NCBI GenBank assembly: GCA_002238865.1
Contig: MPNE01000008.1
Location: forward strand, 1 to 64,000
Source: Gemmatimonadetes bacterium bin94
GTDB lineage: Bacteria; Gemmatimonadota; Gemmatimonadetes; Longimicrobiales; Gaopeijiaceae
Direction of reading: 5' to 3'
DNA: 64,000 nucleotides
Part shown: in pieces, positions 30,298-39,006 of the stretch
Layout: the number at the start of each line of letters is the position of its first letter
How positions within the stretch are numbered: position 1 is the first letter of the stretch
Made by a program: the position numbers and the translations under genes
Notes under the pieces: model-generated
Seen by the model: only the letters and a program-made list of their open reading frames with translations
Database searches by the model: none
What the model was told of the DNA's origin: nothing

Positions 30298-30569
30298 GGG
30301 TGCCTCCGGGATTCGGGAGGAAGGGTGCGGTCCCGTCAGAATAGAGTGCGCGGCTCCCGCGGAATAGACCCCATGCCGTCGTCAGTCGGCACGGCCCTTC
30401 GGCGTGGCCCGGACGATCAACGCGCCGGACCGCCGGCCAGTCCACCCGAATCGAGGTCGGAGCTGCCCGGCACTTCGATGGCCGACGCCCCCAACTTGAC
30501 CGGGGTGCCCTTGTCGCTGCCGGGTGACGCACCGTCACGGGATGCAAGGAGCACCACCCCGGAGAACAG

Positions 30570-30642
30570 CTCCCGCGGCAGGACTCGAACCTGCGACAAG
30601 ACGGTTAACAGCCGTCTGCTCTACCAGCTGAGCTACGCGGGA
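30570..30642 (-). tRNA. tRNA-Asn (anticodon GTT)
   Basis: On the minus strand the sequence folds as a full cloverleaf: acceptor TCCCGCG paired with CGCGGGA, D arm GCTCAGCTGGTAGAGC, anticodon arm GACGG-CTGTTAA-CCGTC with GTT, and T arm GCAGG-TTCGAGT-CCTGC, discriminator G. No CCA is encoded. The gene stands alone between the amidohydrolase fusion and the cytochrome operon. tRNA-Asn(GUU) is a queuosine target, and queG lies 12 kb away. Confidence 0.95.
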
Positions 30643-30822: not shown

Positions 30823-33744
30823 GTGGTTGCTAGAGCCGGGAACGCCACGCGGCCGCGGCAGCTACCCACACTGCTGTCACCGGCCCTGAAGCGACTCCTG
30901 GTGCTCGCGCTCGTCCTGGCGGGCTTCATGCTCGCTGACACACTCTATCTTCTGCTGGTGCGCCTCGCGGACCGTGTCGGGCTCGATCCATTCGCGTTGG
31001 GGGCGGCAAGCCTGCCCCGTTTCTATCAGGCTCTACTCCTCGCCCACACAGCCGCGGGTCTGCTCCTGGCCGCGTTGATGACGGCTTTTCTGGTTTGGCA
31101 CCTTCCCGCGGTGTGGCGGCGATACCACAACGAAGCCGCCTGGACCGGCGTGCCCTACGCCGCCCTTGGAATGACACTTACCGTGACCGGACTTTTCATC
31201 CTTTCGGCGGCGGCAAGTGAGGAGAACAGGTGGGCCTGGTGGCTGCACACCGGAGCGGCAATGCTGACTGTCGCCGGTTACGCGGCACATCGCGCGGTGA
31301 GCCACACGCGGCCACCCGCAGTTCGCTTCGCCCGCTTTCTGGGGGCGGCCGCCGCGGCGAGCCTGGCGCTCTTTGTCGTTCACGGGGCCAACGCGATGGG
31401 CGGCGGGGGCGCATCCCGGGAGGTCCTGGGGAACCCGGGGGCAGAAGGCCCGGGTGGGGTCAACCGCGACGCGGAAGCGATGCTGCGCGGGGACTTCGGG
31501 CCGTCCGGGTGGGTGCCCACCGGAGCCGTGCCGCCCGAGAGTCCGTTCTTCCCCTCGCCGGCGACGACCACGACCGGGGGATTCTTCGACGCGCGCATCC
31601 TCACGCAGGAGGAGCCGGGCATGAGGCCGGAGGCGATCCGAGCCGAGGCCGAAGCCCGGGGTTTCGTCGTGAACGCGCGCATCGGCGCCGAAAACTGCGA
31701 GAGGTGCCACGCGGATGTCGTCGACCAATGGGCCACGTCGGCGCACCGGTTCGCATCGTTCAACAATCCGTTCTACGAAGCGACGATCGTTGCGATGCGC
31801 TCGGAAGCGCTGGAGCCCAATCGCTGGATCGAACGCCACCTGGCGTCTCCCGGCACTGCCACTGATGGCGTTGGACGCGCCAAAAGCAAGTGGTGCAGCG
31901 GCTGCCACGACCCTGTGCTCCTGTTTGCCGGGTCGATGGGACGGGAGATCGACCGGAGTTCGGTCGAGGCACAGGCGGGACTCACGTGCCTGGCATGCCA
32001 CGCGATCAACAGCATCCACGACCGGACCGGAAACGGCAACTACAACATCGAGGACGACTCAACGGACCCCTACGTCTTTGCGTCATCGCCTCCAGGATCG
32101 GTCGGCCGTTTCCTGCACGATGCCGCGCTCAAGGCGCGGCCCGGAGTGCATGCCGCCCGCATGCTCAAGCCGTTTTTTCGCGAAAGTACGTATTGCGCGA
32201 CCTGCCACAAGGTCGGCCTGACCGAGCCGGTGAACGGCTACCGCTGGCTGCGCGGCCAGAACGACTTCGACGGCTGGGACGACAGCGGCGTGTCGTTGAA
32301 CGCGGCGCGGACCTTCTACCTGCCCGCGGCGAGGCGAGTCTGCCAGGACTGCCACATGCCACTGGAGCCAGCCCCCCAGGGGGACCTCGCGGCGGAAAAC
32401 GGGATGGTGCGCTCGCATCGGTTCCTCGCGGCCAACACCGCGCTTCCCTTCCTGAGAGGCGACACCGCGACCCAGCGGCGCATCGAGGATTTCCTGCAGG
32501 CCGAGAGGCTGCGCATCGACATCTTCGCGGTTCGAGTTCCGGATCCGCGCTCGCTGCTGCTACTCGCGGCCCGAGGGTCGTCGGTTCCGGCGGGCATACC
32601 GGTCACCTTCGATATCGTGGTCAGGAACCTGGGGGTCGGACACGCCTTCCCGGGAGGCACAAACGACTCCAACGAGGGCTGGATCGAGTTCACTGTCACC
32701 GACTCACTGGGGCGGCGCGTCCTAGCGAGCGGTCTCGTGGGAGCTGACGGGCACCTGGACCCGCTCGCACACGCCTTCAAGGCCGTTCTGATCGACCGGG
32801 ACGGGAACGCGATTCACAAGCGCAACGCCCAGGACATCCGCACTACGGTCTACGCGAACGTCATCGGACCCGGAACCGCCGATCTCGCGCACTACGAGTT
32901 CACCTTGCCGGCTGCGTTGGCCGGGGCGACGCTAACGGTGAGCGCGCGCCTGCTGTGGCGGAAGTTTGATCGAGCGTACAGTGACTTCGCGTTCGAGACG
33001 AACCCCGCTGGCTTTCGCAACTTCGATTCGCCGCCCGAGTTGCCGGTCACCGAAATCGCCGCCGACTCCGTGCGGATCCTGGTGACCGCGCCAGGCACTC
33101 GTGGTGCGGGTGCGCCGGCGGAGGACGCGTCCGACTGGATCCACAACAACGACTACGGGATCGCGCTTCTGATGGAGGGTGACCTGCGGCGCGCCGCTCA
33201 GGCCTTCGCCCGCGTGGAGGCGCTGGCACCCGGCCGCATCGACGGTCCGCTGAACCTCGCGCGCACCGCCTTCGCGGAAGGGAACCTCGTGCTGGCCCTT
33301 GCGGCGCTCGAACGCTCTGAAGCGATCGATGTCGGAAACCCGAGGGCTGCCTGGGTTTGGGGACAGGTGCTTCAGGAAGATGGCCGCTACGAGGACGCCG
33401 CGCTCGCGTACCGCCGCGTCCTGGAAGTCTTCCCGGGCGACCGCGCCGCCTGGCGCGCGCTTGGCAGAACGCTCTTCCTGGGCGACCGCTACCAGGATGC
33501 ACTCGAGGCGCTGGCCCAAGTCCTCGAAATCGATCCCGAGGACCGTGTCGCCCACTATCATCGCATGCTGTCGCTACGTGCGTTGGGGCGTGACGAGGAG
33601 GCTGCGAGGGCCGAGGCGGCATACCTCTTCCATGGGATTGATGAGGCTGCGCAAGAGATGACCAGGACGTATCGATCCCGCGACCCGGGCGCCAACATCA
33701 TGGCGCAACAGATCCCGGTCCACCGGCTGGAGGTCATCAGGTGA
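30823..33744 (+). CDS. membrane multihaem cytochrome c with TPR domain
   Basis: About 973 residues from the GTG at 30823, which follows GGGGGAC by a suitable distance; the frame is open from 30718. Five hydrophobic segments (about residues 25-210) carry His in LLLAHTAAGLLLA and WWLHTGAAM, positions that could bind haem b. Then come five CxxCH sites: NCERCH, WCSGCH, TCLACH, YCATCH and VCQDCH. A beta-rich stretch follows (about 560-750), and the last 200 residues contain TPR repeats (ALAALERSEAIDVGN, AYRRVLEVFPGDRAAWRAL). It probably passes electrons across or at the inner membrane. Its stop overlaps the GTG start of the next gene, so the three genes to 39006 look like one operon. Confidence 0.88.
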   Translation: MVARAGNATRPRQLPTLLSPALKRLLVLALVLAGFMLADTLYLLLVRLADRVGLDPFALGAASLPRFYQALLLAHTAAGLLLAALMTAFLVWHLPAVWRRYHNEAAWTGVPYAALGMTLTVTGLFILSAAASEENRWAWWLHTGAAMLTVAGYAAHRAVSHTRPPAVRFARFLGAAAAASLALFVVHGANAMGGGGASREVLGNPGAEGPGGVNRDAEAMLRGDFGPSGWVPTGAVPPESPFFPSPATTTTGGFFDARILTQEEPGMRPEAIRAEAEARGFVVNARIGAENCERCHADVVDQWATSAHRFASFNNPFYEATIVAMRSEALEPNRWIERHLASPGTATDGVGRAKSKWCSGCHDPVLLFAGSMGREIDRSSVEAQAGLTCLACHAINSIHDRTGNGNYNIEDDSTDPYVFASSPPGSVGRFLHDAALKARPGVHAARMLKPFFRESTYCATCHKVGLTEPVNGYRWLRGQNDFDGWDDSGVSLNAARTFYLPAARRVCQDCHMPLEPAPQGDLAAENGMVRSHRFLAANTALPFLRGDTATQRRIEDFLQAERLRIDIFAVRVPDPRSLLLLAARGSSVPAGIPVTFDIVVRNLGVGHAFPGGTNDSNEGWIEFTVTDSLGRRVLASGLVGADGHLDPLAHAFKAVLIDRDGNAIHKRNAQDIRTTVYANVIGPGTADLAHYEFTLPAALAGATLTVSARLLWRKFDRAYSDFAFETNPAGFRNFDSPPELPVTEIAADSVRILVTAPGTRGAGAPAEDASDWIHNNDYGIALLMEGDLRRAAQAFARVEALAPGRIDGPLNLARTAFAEGNLVLALAALERSEAIDVGNPRAAWVWGQVLQEDGRYEDAALAYRRVLEVFPGDRAAWRALGRTLFLGDRYQDALEALAQVLEIDPEDRVAHYHRMLSLRALGRDEEAARAEAAYLFHGIDEAAQEMTRTYRSRDPGANIMAQQIPVHRLEVIR

Positions 33745-35513
33745 GGTTGGACGGGGTTCGGCCCTGCCGGCGCAGCCTCGCCCCGTTGCTGTCGAGCATG
33801 CTCATGTTGGCGTGCGCCGCGTGTGCCCGCGAGGAGCCACCGGCGGAGAGCGCGCCGACCTATTCGGAGCCGTCCTATGCGACGAGCCCCGGTGGCACGG
33901 TCGCTACCCGAGTGCGCTTCACCGAGATCGCCGCCGAGGCCGGCATCGACTTCGAGCACGCGACGGGCGCCTTCGGTGAGAAGTGGATGCCCGAGACGCT
34001 CGGCAGCGGGGCAGCGTTTCTCGACTACGACGGCGACGGCTCGCCGGACCTGCTCCTGGTCAATTCGGACTGGTGGCCCCGCCATGAGGGCTCCGGCGAG
34101 CGCCCTACCCAGCGCCTCTACCGCAACCTCGGGGATGGGCGGTTCGAGGACAGGACGGCTGCGGCGGGCCTCGCACTGTCGTTCTACGGGATGGGCGCGG
34201 CCGTGGCGGACTACGACGGTGACGGCGACCCTGACATCTACCTGACCGCGGTGGGGCCGAACCGACTGTTGCGAAACGACGGGGGCACCTTCACCGACGT
34301 CACCGCCATCACCGGAGTGGACGGCGATCTGCCGGAGGGGCCTCCGGCGTGGTCGACAGGGGCAGCCTGGGTCGATGTCGATCTCGACGGCTGGCTCGAC
34401 CTCTACGTGTGCAACTATGTGCGCTGGACGCCTGAGACCGATCTCTTCACCACCCTCGACGGAATGACGAAGTCGTACGCGACGCCGCAGCACTACGAGG
34501 GAGAGTCGTGTCGGCTGTACCGGAACGCGGGCAGCGGGGGTCGCTTCGCCGACATTTCCGAGGCCGCGGGAGTCCTCAACCCGAACGGGAAGTCGCTGGG
34601 CGTCGCGGTAACCGACTTCAACAGCGATGGTTGGCCCGATCTCGTGGTCGCCAACGACACGCAGCGCAACTTCCTCTACCGCAACGAAGGGGATGGCACC
34701 TTCGTCGACATCGCGGTGCGCGCCGGAGTGGCCTTCGACGAGGCCGGGCGCGCCCGTGCGGGGATGGGCATCGACGTCGCCGACCTCGACGGCGAGGGAA
34801 AGTGGTCGATCGTGATCGGCAACTTCGCGCACGAACCGCTGGCCCTTTTCACCCGGATCGGGGACGATCTCTTCCAGGACCGGGCGGGTGCCGCGGGCCT
34901 CTCTCGTCCTACCTTGATCCCGCTCACCTTCGGCGTCGCCTTCGCCGACTTCGACCTCGACGGCGCGCTCGACATCGTGGCTGCCAACGGCCACATCGAG
35001 CCCGCCATCAACGCGGTCCGAGGGGAGCAGACCTTCCCGCAGCGCCCGCAACTTTTTCTGGGGGACGGCTCGGGCGGGTTCATCGATGCGAGCGATCTGG
35101 TGGGTGCTGGCTTCAGAGAGGCCCTGGTCGGGCGCGGTGTCGCTACAGCCGACATCGACGGCGATGGCGACCTCGACTTGCTCGTCACGGAGAACGGGGG
35201 GACGCCAAGGCTGTTTCGCAACGAACTGCCTGTGGCGACCGGGATTGGCATCCGCCTCGCGGGAGCGGCACCCAACCGGGATGCGCTGGGGGCGCTGGTA
35301 ACCGTTTACGCTGACGGGCGTGCACAACGGCGTTTTGTCGCGACGGGTTCGTCGTATCTTTCCCAGTCGGCGCTTGCGCCGCTGCTATTCGGGCTCGGAG
35401 ACGCATCCGTCGCCGACAGCCTGATGGTGCGCTGGCCACGTGGTGGGAGGATCACGCATATGGGGCCGGTGGTGGCGGGCGCGATCGTGACTGTCCAGGA
35501 AACGTCGAGATAG
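33741..35513 (+). CDS. CRTAC1-type FG-GAP/UnbV lipoprotein
   Basis: A 590-residue lipoprotein (lipobox LACAAC, Cys28) starting with GTG that overlaps the previous stop (GTGA). Repeated FG-GAP/VCBS blades have calcium-binding DxDxDGxxD loops: AAFLDYDGDGSPDLLLV, AVADYDGDGDPDIYLT, WVDVDLDGWLDLYV, DFNSDGWPDLVV and ATADIDGDGDLDLLV, forming a beta-propeller. The C-terminal ASPIC/UnbV domain (about 510-585) includes GALVTVYADG and VRWPRGGR. Function unknown; such proteins are periplasmic or surface-exposed and often adjoin TPR and cytochrome proteins. Confidence 0.92.
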   Translation: MRLDGVRPCRRSLAPLLSSMLMLACAACAREEPPAESAPTYSEPSYATSPGGTVATRVRFTEIAAEAGIDFEHATGAFGEKWMPETLGSGAAFLDYDGDGSPDLLLVNSDWWPRHEGSGERPTQRLYRNLGDGRFEDRTAAAGLALSFYGMGAAVADYDGDGDPDIYLTAVGPNRLLRNDGGTFTDVTAITGVDGDLPEGPPAWSTGAAWVDVDLDGWLDLYVCNYVRWTPETDLFTTLDGMTKSYATPQHYEGESCRLYRNAGSGGRFADISEAAGVLNPNGKSLGVAVTDFNSDGWPDLVVANDTQRNFLYRNEGDGTFVDIAVRAGVAFDEAGRARAGMGIDVADLDGEGKWSIVIGNFAHEPLALFTRIGDDLFQDRAGAAGLSRPTLIPLTFGVAFADFDLDGALDIVAANGHIEPAINAVRGEQTFPQRPQLFLGDGSGGFIDASDLVGAGFREALVGRGVATADIDGDGDLDLLVTENGGTPRLFRNELPVATGIGIRLAGAAPNRDALGALVTVYADGRAQRRFVATGSSYLSQSALAPLLFGLGDASVADSLMVRWPRGGRITHMGPVVAGAIVTVQETSR

Positions 35514-35532
35514 TCGCTATGAGGAAGCTTGC

Positions 35533-38500
35533 ATGACGCTGTTGAAATCCACTGCCATTGCGCTCGCAGCTGCCGGATTGACGGCGTGCCAGGACGTGCC
35601 GCCCGACGCCGCAGAGCTCCTGACGATCCGGACGGTCGGGCTCGCCCACCTGGAGGAAAACCGACTCGACGAGGCCGCCGCCGAGTTTGGGCGACTCGTG
35701 CAAATGGCCCCGCGTGAGTCGGCTGGTTTCGCCAATCTGGGGCTGACGTATCTGCGGATGGGACGCCTGGGCGACGCAGAGACAGCGGTGCGCCAAGCCC
35801 TCGATCTCGACCCGGACGATCCGGATGTGCGCTTGATCCTGGCGAACATTCTGCTTGCCGCCGAACGCGTGGGCGACGCCCGCACGGAACTGGAGCGATC
35901 ACTTTCGGCGGACGCAGGGCATGCCCGGACGCTGTATGCGCTCGCGTCTCTCGACGCCGATTCGACTGGTACCGCGGCCATCGCCCGGCGTGTCTCCACG
36001 CTGGGCATCCTGGCCGGGCTGCAACCCGGCAACGTTGCCGCGCGCGTCGAGCACGTACAGTCGCTGTTGGTGGCCGGCAGCACCGACCCCGCTGCCGCCG
36101 GCCTCGAAGCGCTCCGCCAGCTTGTGCCGACGTTCCCCGTCGAGGGCCAGGACCTCTTCGCCGCAGCCCTGCAGGCGGCCAGGGGCGGCGATGCCGCGCA
36201 GTCGCTCGCGGCGGTGCTGCCCTTTCACAACGTCATGCGCACCACACCGGGCTACCAGCGAGGCTTGCGCGAGCTGCGCGGACCCGGTGGCGTCCTTACT
36301 GGCTTCCCGGTGGTCACCTTCAGCGAAATGATCGGGGCCGGCGAGCGCGATGCCGAAACCGTGCTTGCGGCGCTCCGCTTCACCGACGTGACCGAGGACG
36401 CCGGTATCCCGCCCGCCGGAGCGTTGGCCAGTGGAGACGGGTTTGCGGTGGCCGACTTCGACGGTGACGGCGATCACGACATCTACGCGGGCGGCCGACT
36501 GCTGCGCAACGATTTGGCCGGCTTCGCCGACGTGACGGAGGATGCCGGTCTCGCCGGGCCGGTGTCCGACGCCGCAGCCTTCGCCGACTACGACAACGAC
36601 GGAGCGCTCGACCTCTACCTGGCCCGCGGCGCGGACGGCGCGCTCTTTCGCGGCCGGGGTGACGGCTCCTTCACCGAGGTGACGGCATCCCTCGGAGTCG
36701 CACTTCCGGCCGGAGTGCCGCTCTTCCTGGATTATGACCACGACGGCGACCTCGACCTGGCACTTGCGGCACCGACCTCCGGCGGGATGCTCCGCAACAA
36801 CCTCGACGGCACCTTCGTCGACGTGACCGAGTTGGCGGGCACCGGGTCTCCGGCGGCCTTCGGGGGATCGGCTGCCTTCGGCGACTTCGACGACGACGAC
36901 GACCTCGATTTCGTGGTCGCGGATCCCGGCGGTGCGCTCAGACTTTACGACAACGAGCGCGGCGGCCGTCTCGCGGAGCGCGCCACCGAGCGCGGCCTGG
37001 CGGCCCGGGGCCAGGGCGTCGTCTCGGTCGGCGACTACAACAACGATGGCCTGCTCGACCTCCTGACCGCGCCGAGCGGCGGCACCGGAGTCACCCTGTG
37101 GCTGAACCAGGGGGGCGGCAGCTTCGCGGCCGACGAACGGCCGGACGCTCTCCTCGCGGGCGCGGCCCGCTTCGCCGTCCATGACGGCATCTTCCTCGAC
37201 TTCGACAACGACGGCTGGCTCGACATCGCGCTCGCCGGCGAGTCCTCGCCGGGTGAAGGGACCGTCAGGCTCTACCACAACGCCGCTGCCGGGCGCTTCG
37301 ACGATGTCTCGCACATGCTGCCGCCGGTTCCCCCCTTGCGCCGCATCGCGGCCGCCGACTTCGGCGCCGACGGCGACCTCGACCTCTTCGCCTCGACCAG
37401 CGACGGATCGGTGAGGCTGCTGCGCAACGACGGCGGCAACGGAAACCGCTACCTCAAGATGCAGCTCGTAGGGCTTTCCATCGGCAGCGGCAAGAACAAC
37501 CACTTCGGCCTTGGAGCGAAGGTCGAAGTCCGGGCGGGAGCCCTCCATCGGACGCTGGTCGTCACCGGGCCGGAAGTCCACATCGGCCTCGGCCAACGTC
37601 CGGGCGCCGATGTCGTGCGGGTGCGATGGCCCAACGGGGTGCCCCAGAACATCCTCTACAGCGGCGCCAACCAGTCGATCGTCGAAGAACAGATCCTCAA
37701 GGGCTCGTGCCCAACGCTCTTCGCCTGGAATGGAGAGCGCTTCGAATTCGTGACCGACGTCATGTGGAAGAGCGCCCTGGGGATGCCCGTCGGGCTCATG
37801 GCGAGGGGAGACGCCAGCTACGCGCCGCCGGCCGCTTCCCGGGAGTACCTCCGCATTCCGGGCGACGCGCTCCGCGAGCGGGACGGGAGCTACGAGCTGC
37901 GCATCACCGATGAGCTCTGGGAGATCTTCTACGTCGACGAAGTCGATCTGGTCGTGGTCGACCATCCCGATTCCGTGGATGTCTTCGTCGACGAGCGCTT
38001 CGTCCCCCCCGGGCCGGATTTCCGGCTCGAACTCCATCAGGTCTCGGACCACCGACGGCCGCGCTCAGCCATCGACCACGCCGGCCGCGACGCGCTTCCG
38101 GCCCTCTCGGCATTGGACGACGTGTACGTCGGCGGCTTCGAGCCACTCCGCTACCAAGGCATGAGCGAAATGCACGATCTGGTGCTCGATCTCGGTGACT
38201 TCGCGCCCGACCAGCCGGTCCGGCTGTTCCTGCGCGGGTGGATCTTTCCTACCGACGCGAGCATCAACGTCGCCCTCTCGCAGTCCCGGGCGCTCGCAAC
38301 CGTGGCGCCCTCTCTGCAGGTGATCGGAGAAGGCGGCGAGTGGGAGACGGTGGTTCCGCAGCTCAGTTTTCCGTCGGGAAAGAACAAGACGATCGTGCAG
38401 GAACTGACCGGGCTCTTTCCGACCGCCGACCACCGCGTGCGGATCCGGACCAACATGAACATCTACTGGGACGAGGCGTTCTTCTCCGTGGGTGCGGCCG

Positions 38501-39006
38501 AGGCACCGGTGCGTCTCACCGTGCTGGAGCCCGCCGCCGCCGATCTGCGCTACCGGGGCTTTTCCAGGGAATTCCTCAAGGGCGGGCGCTACGGCCCCCC
38601 CTGGTTCGACTATGGATCGGTGTCGGACCAGCCGCGATGGCGTCCTCTTGCAGGGAGCTTCACCCGGTATGGCGACGTGCTCGCACTTGTCGAAGAGGCC
38701 GACGACCTCTACCCGATCATGGCCCCCGGCGACGAACTCGCGCTCCGTTTCGACGCCACCCGGCTCCCCCGGCCCCCCGAGGGATGGACGCGCGACTTCC
38801 TGATTTATACGGAGGGTTGGTTGAAGGACGCCGATCTCAATACCGCGACCGGGTGGAAGGTCGATCCCCTCCCCTTCCACGCAATGACCCGATACCCGTA
38901 CGACTCCGCCGAAGCGTACCCCCATGCTGAAGTCGTGGATGCCTGGCACACCCGCGAGCCCCTGCCGGCCCCGAAACTCGGCGGGGAGGGTGCGACGAAG
39001 AGGTAG
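35533..39006 (+). CDS. TPR plus CRTAC1-type FG-GAP/UnbV lipoprotein
   Basis: A 1157-residue lipoprotein (lipobox GLTAC, Cys19). N-terminal TPRs (about 30-260) include AGFANLGLTYLRMGRLGDAE. The middle is a FG-GAP/VCBS propeller (about 280-640) with many acidic loops (VADFDGDGDHDIYAGG, FADYDNDGALDLYLA, FLDFDNDGWLDIALA), followed by an ASPIC/UnbV domain (about 640-710: LGAKVEVRAG, VRVRWPNG). The remaining 440 residues form an extra domain with many Trp/Tyr that I do not recognise. It begins 19 bp after the previous gene. With the cytochrome and the shorter CRTAC1 protein it forms a likely envelope complex (inference). Confidence 0.9.
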   Translation: MTLLKSTAIALAAAGLTACQDVPPDAAELLTIRTVGLAHLEENRLDEAAAEFGRLVQMAPRESAGFANLGLTYLRMGRLGDAETAVRQALDLDPDDPDVRLILANILLAAERVGDARTELERSLSADAGHARTLYALASLDADSTGTAAIARRVSTLGILAGLQPGNVAARVEHVQSLLVAGSTDPAAAGLEALRQLVPTFPVEGQDLFAAALQAARGGDAAQSLAAVLPFHNVMRTTPGYQRGLRELRGPGGVLTGFPVVTFSEMIGAGERDAETVLAALRFTDVTEDAGIPPAGALASGDGFAVADFDGDGDHDIYAGGRLLRNDLAGFADVTEDAGLAGPVSDAAAFADYDNDGALDLYLARGADGALFRGRGDGSFTEVTASLGVALPAGVPLFLDYDHDGDLDLALAAPTSGGMLRNNLDGTFVDVTELAGTGSPAAFGGSAAFGDFDDDDDLDFVVADPGGALRLYDNERGGRLAERATERGLAARGQGVVSVGDYNNDGLLDLLTAPSGGTGVTLWLNQGGGSFAADERPDALLAGAARFAVHDGIFLDFDNDGWLDIALAGESSPGEGTVRLYHNAAAGRFDDVSHMLPPVPPLRRIAAADFGADGDLDLFASTSDGSVRLLRNDGGNGNRYLKMQLVGLSIGSGKNNHFGLGAKVEVRAGALHRTLVVTGPEVHIGLGQRPGADVVRVRWPNGVPQNILYSGANQSIVEEQILKGSCPTLFAWNGERFEFVTDVMWKSALGMPVGLMARGDASYAPPAASREYLRIPGDALRERDGSYELRITDELWEIFYVDEVDLVVVDHPDSVDVFVDERFVPPGPDFRLELHQVSDHRRPRSAIDHAGRDALPALSALDDVYVGGFEPLRYQGMSEMHDLVLDLGDFAPDQPVRLFLRGWIFPTDASINVALSQSRALATVAPSLQVIGEGGEWETVVPQLSFPSGKNKTIVQELTGLFPTADHRVRIRTNMNIYWDEAFFSVGAAEAPVRLTVLEPAAADLRYRGFSREFLKGGRYGPPWFDYGSVSDQPRWRPLAGSFTRYGDVLALVEEADDLYPIMAPGDELALRFDATRLPRPPEGWTRDFLIYTEGWLKDADLNTATGWKVDPLPFHAMTRYPYDSAEAYPHAEVVDAWHTREPLPAPKLGGEGATKR

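Follow-up and report, generated by a model that had tools for sequence, protein, structure and literature searches.

Positions 30823-39006 of a 64-kb window (the whole stretch of DNA analysed, from contig MPNE01000008.1 of Gemmatimonadetes bacterium bin94) hold three genes oriented in the same direction on the plus strand. Gene 1 (30823..33744) encodes a cytochrome of 973 aa, counted from a putative GTG start at 30823 instead of the GTG at 30901 picked by the gene-calling script, with a putative b-type membrane domain, a penta-haem c-type domain and a tail of tetratricopeptide repeats (TPRs). Gene 2 (33741..35513), whose GTG start at 33741 overlaps the TGA stop of gene 1 (33742-33744) as GTGA, encodes a CRTAC1 lipoprotein composed of an FG-GAP propeller and an UnbV domain, referred to below as the partner CRTAC1. 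Gene 3 (35533..39006) follows gene 2, which ends at 35513, with a spacer of 19 bases and encodes a second CRTAC1 lipoprotein, of 1157 aa, with N-terminal TPRs and a C-terminal part of ~430 aa outside known families. CRTAC1 proteins were recognized by an UnbV_ASPIC match above the Pfam cut-off of 23.4 bits together with FG-GAP repeats, and both genes qualify (47.2 bits for gene 2, 29.7 bits for gene 3); their N-termini, judged by eye, resemble lipoboxes (...LACAAC and ...LTAC). The arrangement of two FG-GAP/UnbV lipoproteins, one with TPRs, at the overlap and 19 bp further on had been described in an earlier reading of the sequence alone (the sequence-only reading), and was confirmed here by coordinates and Pfam. 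To our knowledge bacterial CRTAC1 proteins are common and have no known role. The analysis below indicates a genuine and widespread pairing of the cytochrome with the first CRTAC1.

Pairing of the cytochrome and CRTAC1 genes

The order cytochrome, CRTAC1, TPR-CRTAC1 was retained at seven of eight same-genus loci, and the eighth (L041) agrees up to the end of its contig; since the order is kept, the three-gene arrangement is not attributable to chance. A profile built from nine cytochrome sequences (A1) was also run against genome contigs; of the 514 loci confirmed, the best 80 were analysed, the closest named relative among them being a Longimicrobiales metagenome-assembled genome (MAG). These 80 loci were selected by the cytochrome only, and in 57 of them the gene that immediately follows it on the same strand encodes a CRTAC1; a survey for cytochromes beside CRTAC1 genes had been proposed in the sequence-only reading. 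The gap between the two genes ranges from -31 to 644 bases, except in L129 (2153 bases), whose cytochrome gene is fragmented. When all predicted genes of the 80 loci were clustered, the cytochrome family counted 80, CRTAC1 68 and the next family 9. In a FastTree phylogeny of 113 CRTAC1s of at least 400 aa, a single branch splits off 55 of the 56 partner rows, together with five near-downstream copies and a displaced copy from L064, a locus whose adjacent CRTAC1 (counted among the 57) lies outside this partner clade.

The 80 loci carry the labels of about ten phyla, some of which may reflect contamination because nearly all loci come from MAGs. By label, direct pairing was seen in Gemmatimonadota (26/31), Planctomycetota (14/18), Latescibacterota (6/8), Pseudomonadota (4/4), Fidelibacterota (1/3), Calditrichota (1/2), Bacteroidota (1/2), Rhodothermota (1/1) and unassigned loci (3/5), and was not seen in Acidobacteriota (0/5) or Myxococcota (0/1). 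Ten of the 23 loci without direct pairing stop within 900 bases downstream of the cytochrome, too early for a downstream partner to be judged; two of these ten (L068 and L117) have another CRTAC1 upstream. The CRTAC1 is next but one in L061 and L102, 3-7 kb downstream in L122, L123 and L125, directly upstream in L126, and 1.5 kb upstream with one gene between in L128 and L132. No partner-type CRTAC1 was seen near the cytochrome in L074, L092, L110, L124 and L131; in the first four of these five a good CRTAC1 match, of 45-58% identity, lies elsewhere in the genome. Three Acidobacteriota loci, in which the partner CRTAC1 is displaced or was not seen, have a gene for a protein of 670-706 aa after the cytochrome (L122 at 12764, L124 at 5377 and L125 at 12220), for which the L122 copy gave no Pfam match.

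Presence was also compared genome by genome. Among 59 relatives, with thresholds of E ≤1e-40 for the cytochrome and E ≤1e-60 for CRTAC1, the cytochrome was found in 14 and CRTAC1 in the same 14. Of 200 genomes sampled from the phylum, 27 have the cytochrome; CRTAC1 was found in the same 27 and in G158, where a divergent cytochrome (27% identical) lies directly upstream of the CRTAC1. One of the 27, G229, has only the membrane domain of the cytochrome, and its counted CRTAC1 match sits elsewhere in the genome. As far as seen, with some copies at contig ends, both proteins are thus present in 26 of the 27 genomes and in G158. A control, the large CRTAC1 type of G000:C4:99455, was present in 42 of the 200 genomes and in 13 of the 27 with the cytochrome, and was rejected as part of the system because it tracks the cytochrome in the genus (9/23) and not in the phylum. 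Genes lying apart in relatives, with no co-occurrence of cytochrome and CRTAC1, had been named in the sequence-only reading as the outcome that would speak against it; co-occurrence proved to be nearly perfect.

At the G229 locus itself (L133, G229:C1:4106000-4122000), the reading frame of the membrane domain continues into the C-terminal end of a partner-like CRTAC1 (minus strand, ~9725-8915), apparently through one deletion that would have removed the c domain, the TPRs and the greater part of gene 2; gene 3 follows intact.

Domains of the cytochrome

The model alignment (A2) comprised 51 of the 63 prepared window and locus sequences, and AlphaFold2 gave confident models both of the whole gene 1 protein (mean predicted local distance difference test, pLDDT, 89.6; predicted template modelling score, pTM, 0.85; 51 sequences) and of its membrane part alone (pLDDT 91.3, pTM 0.85, 50 sequences). 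The N-terminal membrane domain (30880..31401, plus strand) is modelled as five long helices, at residues 20-52, 66-99, 103-129, 133-158 and 166-193. Conservation was scored in an alignment of 77 rows, made up of the window, L046-L048 and those cytochromes from the 80 loci with at least 700 aa and at least four CxxCH motifs. Among rows with a residue at the position, four membrane histidines are conserved: H75 (74/74) and H93 (71/74) on helix 2, H142 (75/75) and H156 (72/75) on helix 4. Two His pairs on two helices are also the arrangement of di-haem b561-like cytochromes, and the positive-inside rule would put H75/H142 towards the periplasmic side and H93/H156 towards the cytoplasmic side, as in a di-haem cytochrome b. 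VIA-align placed the domain beside E. coli superoxide oxidase (Z 11.0), hydrogenase-1 cytochrome b (10.9), cytochrome b6 (10.9), FDH-N gamma (10.7) and cytochrome b561 (9.1), and relatives gave sub-cut-off Pfam matches to the b-type families PF01292 (0.0033, L108) and PF14358 (0.0065, L046).

The periplasmic domain (31660..33108, plus strand) is a relative of penta-haem cytochrome c552. Its five CxxCH motifs (31696, 31894, 31987, 32194 and 32341, plus strand; residues 292, 358, 389, 458 and 507) keep Cys and His in all 77 rows, the best profile match of the periplasmic part was to this cytochrome (E 3.7e-12), and the best Foldseek match of the whole model was to 5ze8, the c552 of Thermochromatium tepidum (E 1.2e-10, TM 0.66 by target length). 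The likeness to c552 and the ExtKL-PHC family extends to the fold and to a beta domain ending with H-x-x-P-x-G; unlike c552, gene 1 has a five-helix membrane domain in front, TPRs behind and a tie to a CRTAC1 gene. The NCBIfam ExtKL model NF040886 scored 21.7 bits against a cut-off of 250, so gene 1 is not ExtKL itself. In the available portion of one study, c552 is placed near a pentahaem family with ExtKL-type cytochromes and the archaeal AvECN nanowire, and is given no role (PMC11976967).

Outside the CxxCH motifs, the only histidines kept in every row (77/77) are H308, H443, H532 and H607. Of the 77 rows, 67 have H650, and H650, H399 and H432 are all missing from L122-L125, L047 and L048. 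Since only four additional histidines are invariant and these three are absent from some loci, the distal ligand of one haem would be either variable or lacking, leaving that haem open. H607 lies within the GHxFPGG motif of the C-terminal beta domain. The profile also reached cytochrome c554, octahaem nitrite reductase and the selenoprotein MccSep, all weakly (E 0.0024 to 0.27), and at the stretch around H607 the weak MccSep alignment has GHSIPDGX, whose X we read from the entry title as selenocysteine.

The fusion of a b-type membrane domain to a periplasmic multihaem c domain has a precedent in CbcL of Geobacter sulfurreducens, a quinone oxidoreductase in which an inner-membrane di-haem b domain is joined to a nine-haem c domain (PMC9129911, in the portion available). 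CbcL has six helices, and bis-His ligation at each of its nine c haems, whereas gene 1 has five helices, five haem motifs and four invariant additional histidines and does not fall within that family; neither TPRs nor a CRTAC1 partner are mentioned for CbcL in that portion. Taken together, the model, the alignment and Pfam bear out the composition proposed for gene 1 in the sequence-only reading: five membrane helices with conserved membrane His, five CxxCH motifs and C-terminal TPRs.

The partner CRTAC1, the TPRs and the third gene

Gene 2 resembles human CRTAC1 in combining an FG-GAP propeller with an UnbV domain (phmmer against 9etn, E 6.2e-21); unlike the human protein, it is a lipoprotein, has conserved residues of its own and is tied to one cytochrome family. 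A comparison limited to rows of 500 aa or more set 61 partners, among them the five near-downstream copies and the displaced L064 copy, against 32 other CRTAC1s, with gene-3-like rows excluded. W229 was found in 1.00 of the partners and 0.00 of the others, and K244, Y246, Y252, K284, G360, E365 and L395-T396-F397 are further partner-only residues. The lipobox Cys, C28, is present in 92% of partners against 32% of others, no other Cys reaches 90%, and CxxCH was found in none of the 61 partners. These partner-only residues, with no CxxCH and no additional conserved Cys, suggest a specific interface or site in gene 2-type CRTAC1s, which probably carry no haem of their own and are unlikely to be electron carriers. 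The suggestion that the CRTAC1s bind a redox or metal partner is therefore borne out only as regards the FG-GAP loops, which in the partners remain rich in Asp, a typical feature of propellers that bind cations. A possible readthrough, raised by one TAG within the UnbV1 matches, was rejected, four related loci showing an ordinary stop codon.

The TPR superhelix of gene 1 (33127..33705, plus strand; residues ~769-961 of the AlphaFold2 model) scores above the Pfam cut-offs. The NCBIfam MamA model NF040959 gave 55.9 bits against a cut-off of 200, in a match limited to this part, and the VIA list for the whole model, being filled with TPRs, is uninformative on the other parts of gene 1. In most relatives it is the cytochrome that bears the TPRs; the cytochromes of the divergent branch L046-L048 stop before them, the adjoining CRTAC1 of L046 bears C-terminal TPRs, and in L128 a separate TPR gene lies between CRTAC1 and cytochrome. 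Because the block switches partner within one gene pair, it suggests a domain that would join cytochrome and CRTAC1, which makes the earlier proposal of a complex built on TPR contacts plausible, with the TPRs mostly on the cytochrome and in the divergent branch on CRTAC1.

Gene 3 was found in 13 of the 59 relatives, namely 12 of the 14 with the cytochrome and G054. It looks like an accessory TPR-CRTAC1, a lineage-limited add-on rather than a constant part, so that of the two CRTAC1s once proposed for the complex gene 2 stands as the constant partner and gene 3 does not. Its C-terminal part (37708..39003, plus strand) gave no match in a PDB sequence search or a Pfam scan. CRTAC1 genes do not lie beside cytochromes in general: there are four UnbV matches in the 4.42 Mb of the window genome, two of which (C4:100919 and C54:72726) have no cytochrome neighbour, and penta-haem paralogues in L049 and L050 (2/2) have no CRTAC1 within the 20 kb covered. 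The control type at G000:C4:99455-102655 (L051 7456-10659) is a double-propeller CRTAC1 adjoining genes that, by eye, are SusC/SusD-like.

Other arrangements were also seen. In L047 (1-13303) two CRTAC1s and the cytochrome surround genes for a Trp-halogenase-like flavoprotein and an Asn-synthase-like protein, a possible link to a biosynthetic cluster; L059 (3964-21739) has one cytochrome flanked by five CRTAC1 genes, two of them double-propeller (~1217 aa); and G232, the 6 Mb Latescibacteria genome of L092, gave 33 partner-CRTAC1 matches at E ≤1e-40. In the window, a tRNA-Asn gene lies upstream on the opposite strand (30569-30642). The upstream neighbours of the operon differ between same-genus genomes, and the operon therefore appears often to move or be lost. 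Downstream of gene 3 are a sortilin/BNR gene (39162) and a further gene (42426), presumably GH127-like. The sortilin/BNR gene lies downstream in same-genus loci with room for it and in only five of the 80 loci, and was set aside as lineage-specific.

A proposed envelope complex

We consider it probable, at roughly 0.6, that genes 1 and 2 encode one envelope complex, a quinone-linked b/c cytochrome with a TPR-docked, non-redox CRTAC1 as a docking or substrate-presenting subunit. Two b haems on the two His pairs would conduct electrons through the inner membrane, linking the quinone pool with the five periplasmic c haems, and the TPR tail would dock the dedicated gene 2 lipoprotein, whose conserved Trp, Lys, Tyr and Glu (W229, K244, Y252, K284 and E365) may contact the cytochrome or a substrate. 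The route would run from quinol (or quinone) through the two b haems and the five c haems to a substrate or acceptor that the docked CRTAC1 would help to hold, without carrying electrons itself. This wiring is proposed from the domain families, with CbcL as the precedent, and quinol-driven reduction is our guess for its direction. The nearly perfect co-occurrence likewise supports the earlier notion of an envelope electron-transfer unit that includes a CRTAC1.

Several observations weigh against this reading. Within the genus, the unrelated CRTAC1 of the G000:C4:99455 type is found in the same nine of 23 genomes as the cytochrome, so that co-occurrence at this level is by itself weak evidence and may reflect inheritance within a subclade. 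The upstream CRTAC1s of L126, L128 and L132 lie outside the partner clade, the cytochromes of L126 and L128 retain TPRs of their own, and L131 has the c domain with neither the membrane b domain nor a CRTAC1 match. For the membrane domain, de novo bundles reach equal VIA-align Z scores, a Z of ~11 is under the caution level for helical bundles and may reflect a common bundle arrangement, Foldseek with the domain alone gave no match below E 0.2, and the window cytochrome has no Pfam b-type match. Because the bundle scores are non-specific and a Foldseek match is missing, the four conserved histidines outweigh the fold matches as evidence for a b domain.

Catalysis might instead reside in the cytochrome, with one c haem that lacks a His ligand acting as the active site for a small periplasmic substrate and CRTAC1 and TPRs only organizing the complex. 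Four invariant non-motif histidines for five haems, the loss of H650, H399 and H432 together from six loci, and the profile contacts with c554, nitrite reductase and MccSep all point this way, and we regard it as an appreciable possibility, although H650 could fill the site in most rows, the fifth haem may have a non-His ligand, and the profile contacts are those weak ones. The structural match to c552, and the link drawn in the available part of PMC11976967 between c552, ExtKL-type cytochromes and the AvECN nanowire, would fit an electron path to the outside in which the CRTAC1 lipoprotein tethers the penta-haem domain to the outer membrane; this we think unlikely, as the domain is here anchored to the inner membrane and no porin or further multihaem gene is common to the 80 loci.

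That the two proteins are merely regulated together, serving the same condition without ever touching, agrees with loci in which the genes are unlinked or their order varies, but one-to-one presence across the phylum and a dedicated CRTAC1 clade make it distinctly improbable. Least credible is the earlier suggestion that CRTAC1 takes electrons as a redox or metal cofactor protein: its Asp-rich loops are conserved and H418 is invariant among the partners, yet H418 is also found in 57% of other CRTAC1s, and neither CxxCH nor any conserved Cys beyond the lipobox is available to such a protein. Returning to the proposed complex, the fuller version, a widespread and undescribed respiratory or periplasmic redox complex in which a quinone-linked b/penta-haem c cytochrome has CRTAC1 as an obligatory non-redox subunit and an open fifth haem as the active site, is put forward tentatively, at somewhat short of even odds.

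The literature search gave no paper on a parallel with enediyne UnbV/UnbU. In the available portions of the literature searched, including PMC3174227, PMC12758564, PMC9129911, PMC11976967 and PMC13188914, neither the pairing of such a cytochrome with CRTAC1 nor a protein that joins a membrane b domain to a penta-haem c domain and a TPR tail is described. The pair is apparently undescribed, built from known families as a variant of the quinone-linked multihaem cytochromes. The nearest likeness, by description and not by sequence, is with HZS-like clusters of Planctomycetota and others, in which the genes for HZS-alpha and beta-gamma homologues have a CRTAC1-family gene next to them or in between and, in the available portion of the source, neither a b domain nor a TPR fusion is described (PMC12758564).

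A CRTAC1 subfamily whose presence matches that of one cytochrome family almost one-to-one offers a concrete hypothesis, that of a redox-complex subunit, and with it a testable role. If true, it would, together with the HZS-like clusters, point to a general rule, under which some of the bacterial CRTAC1s serve multihaem enzymes as partner subunits.

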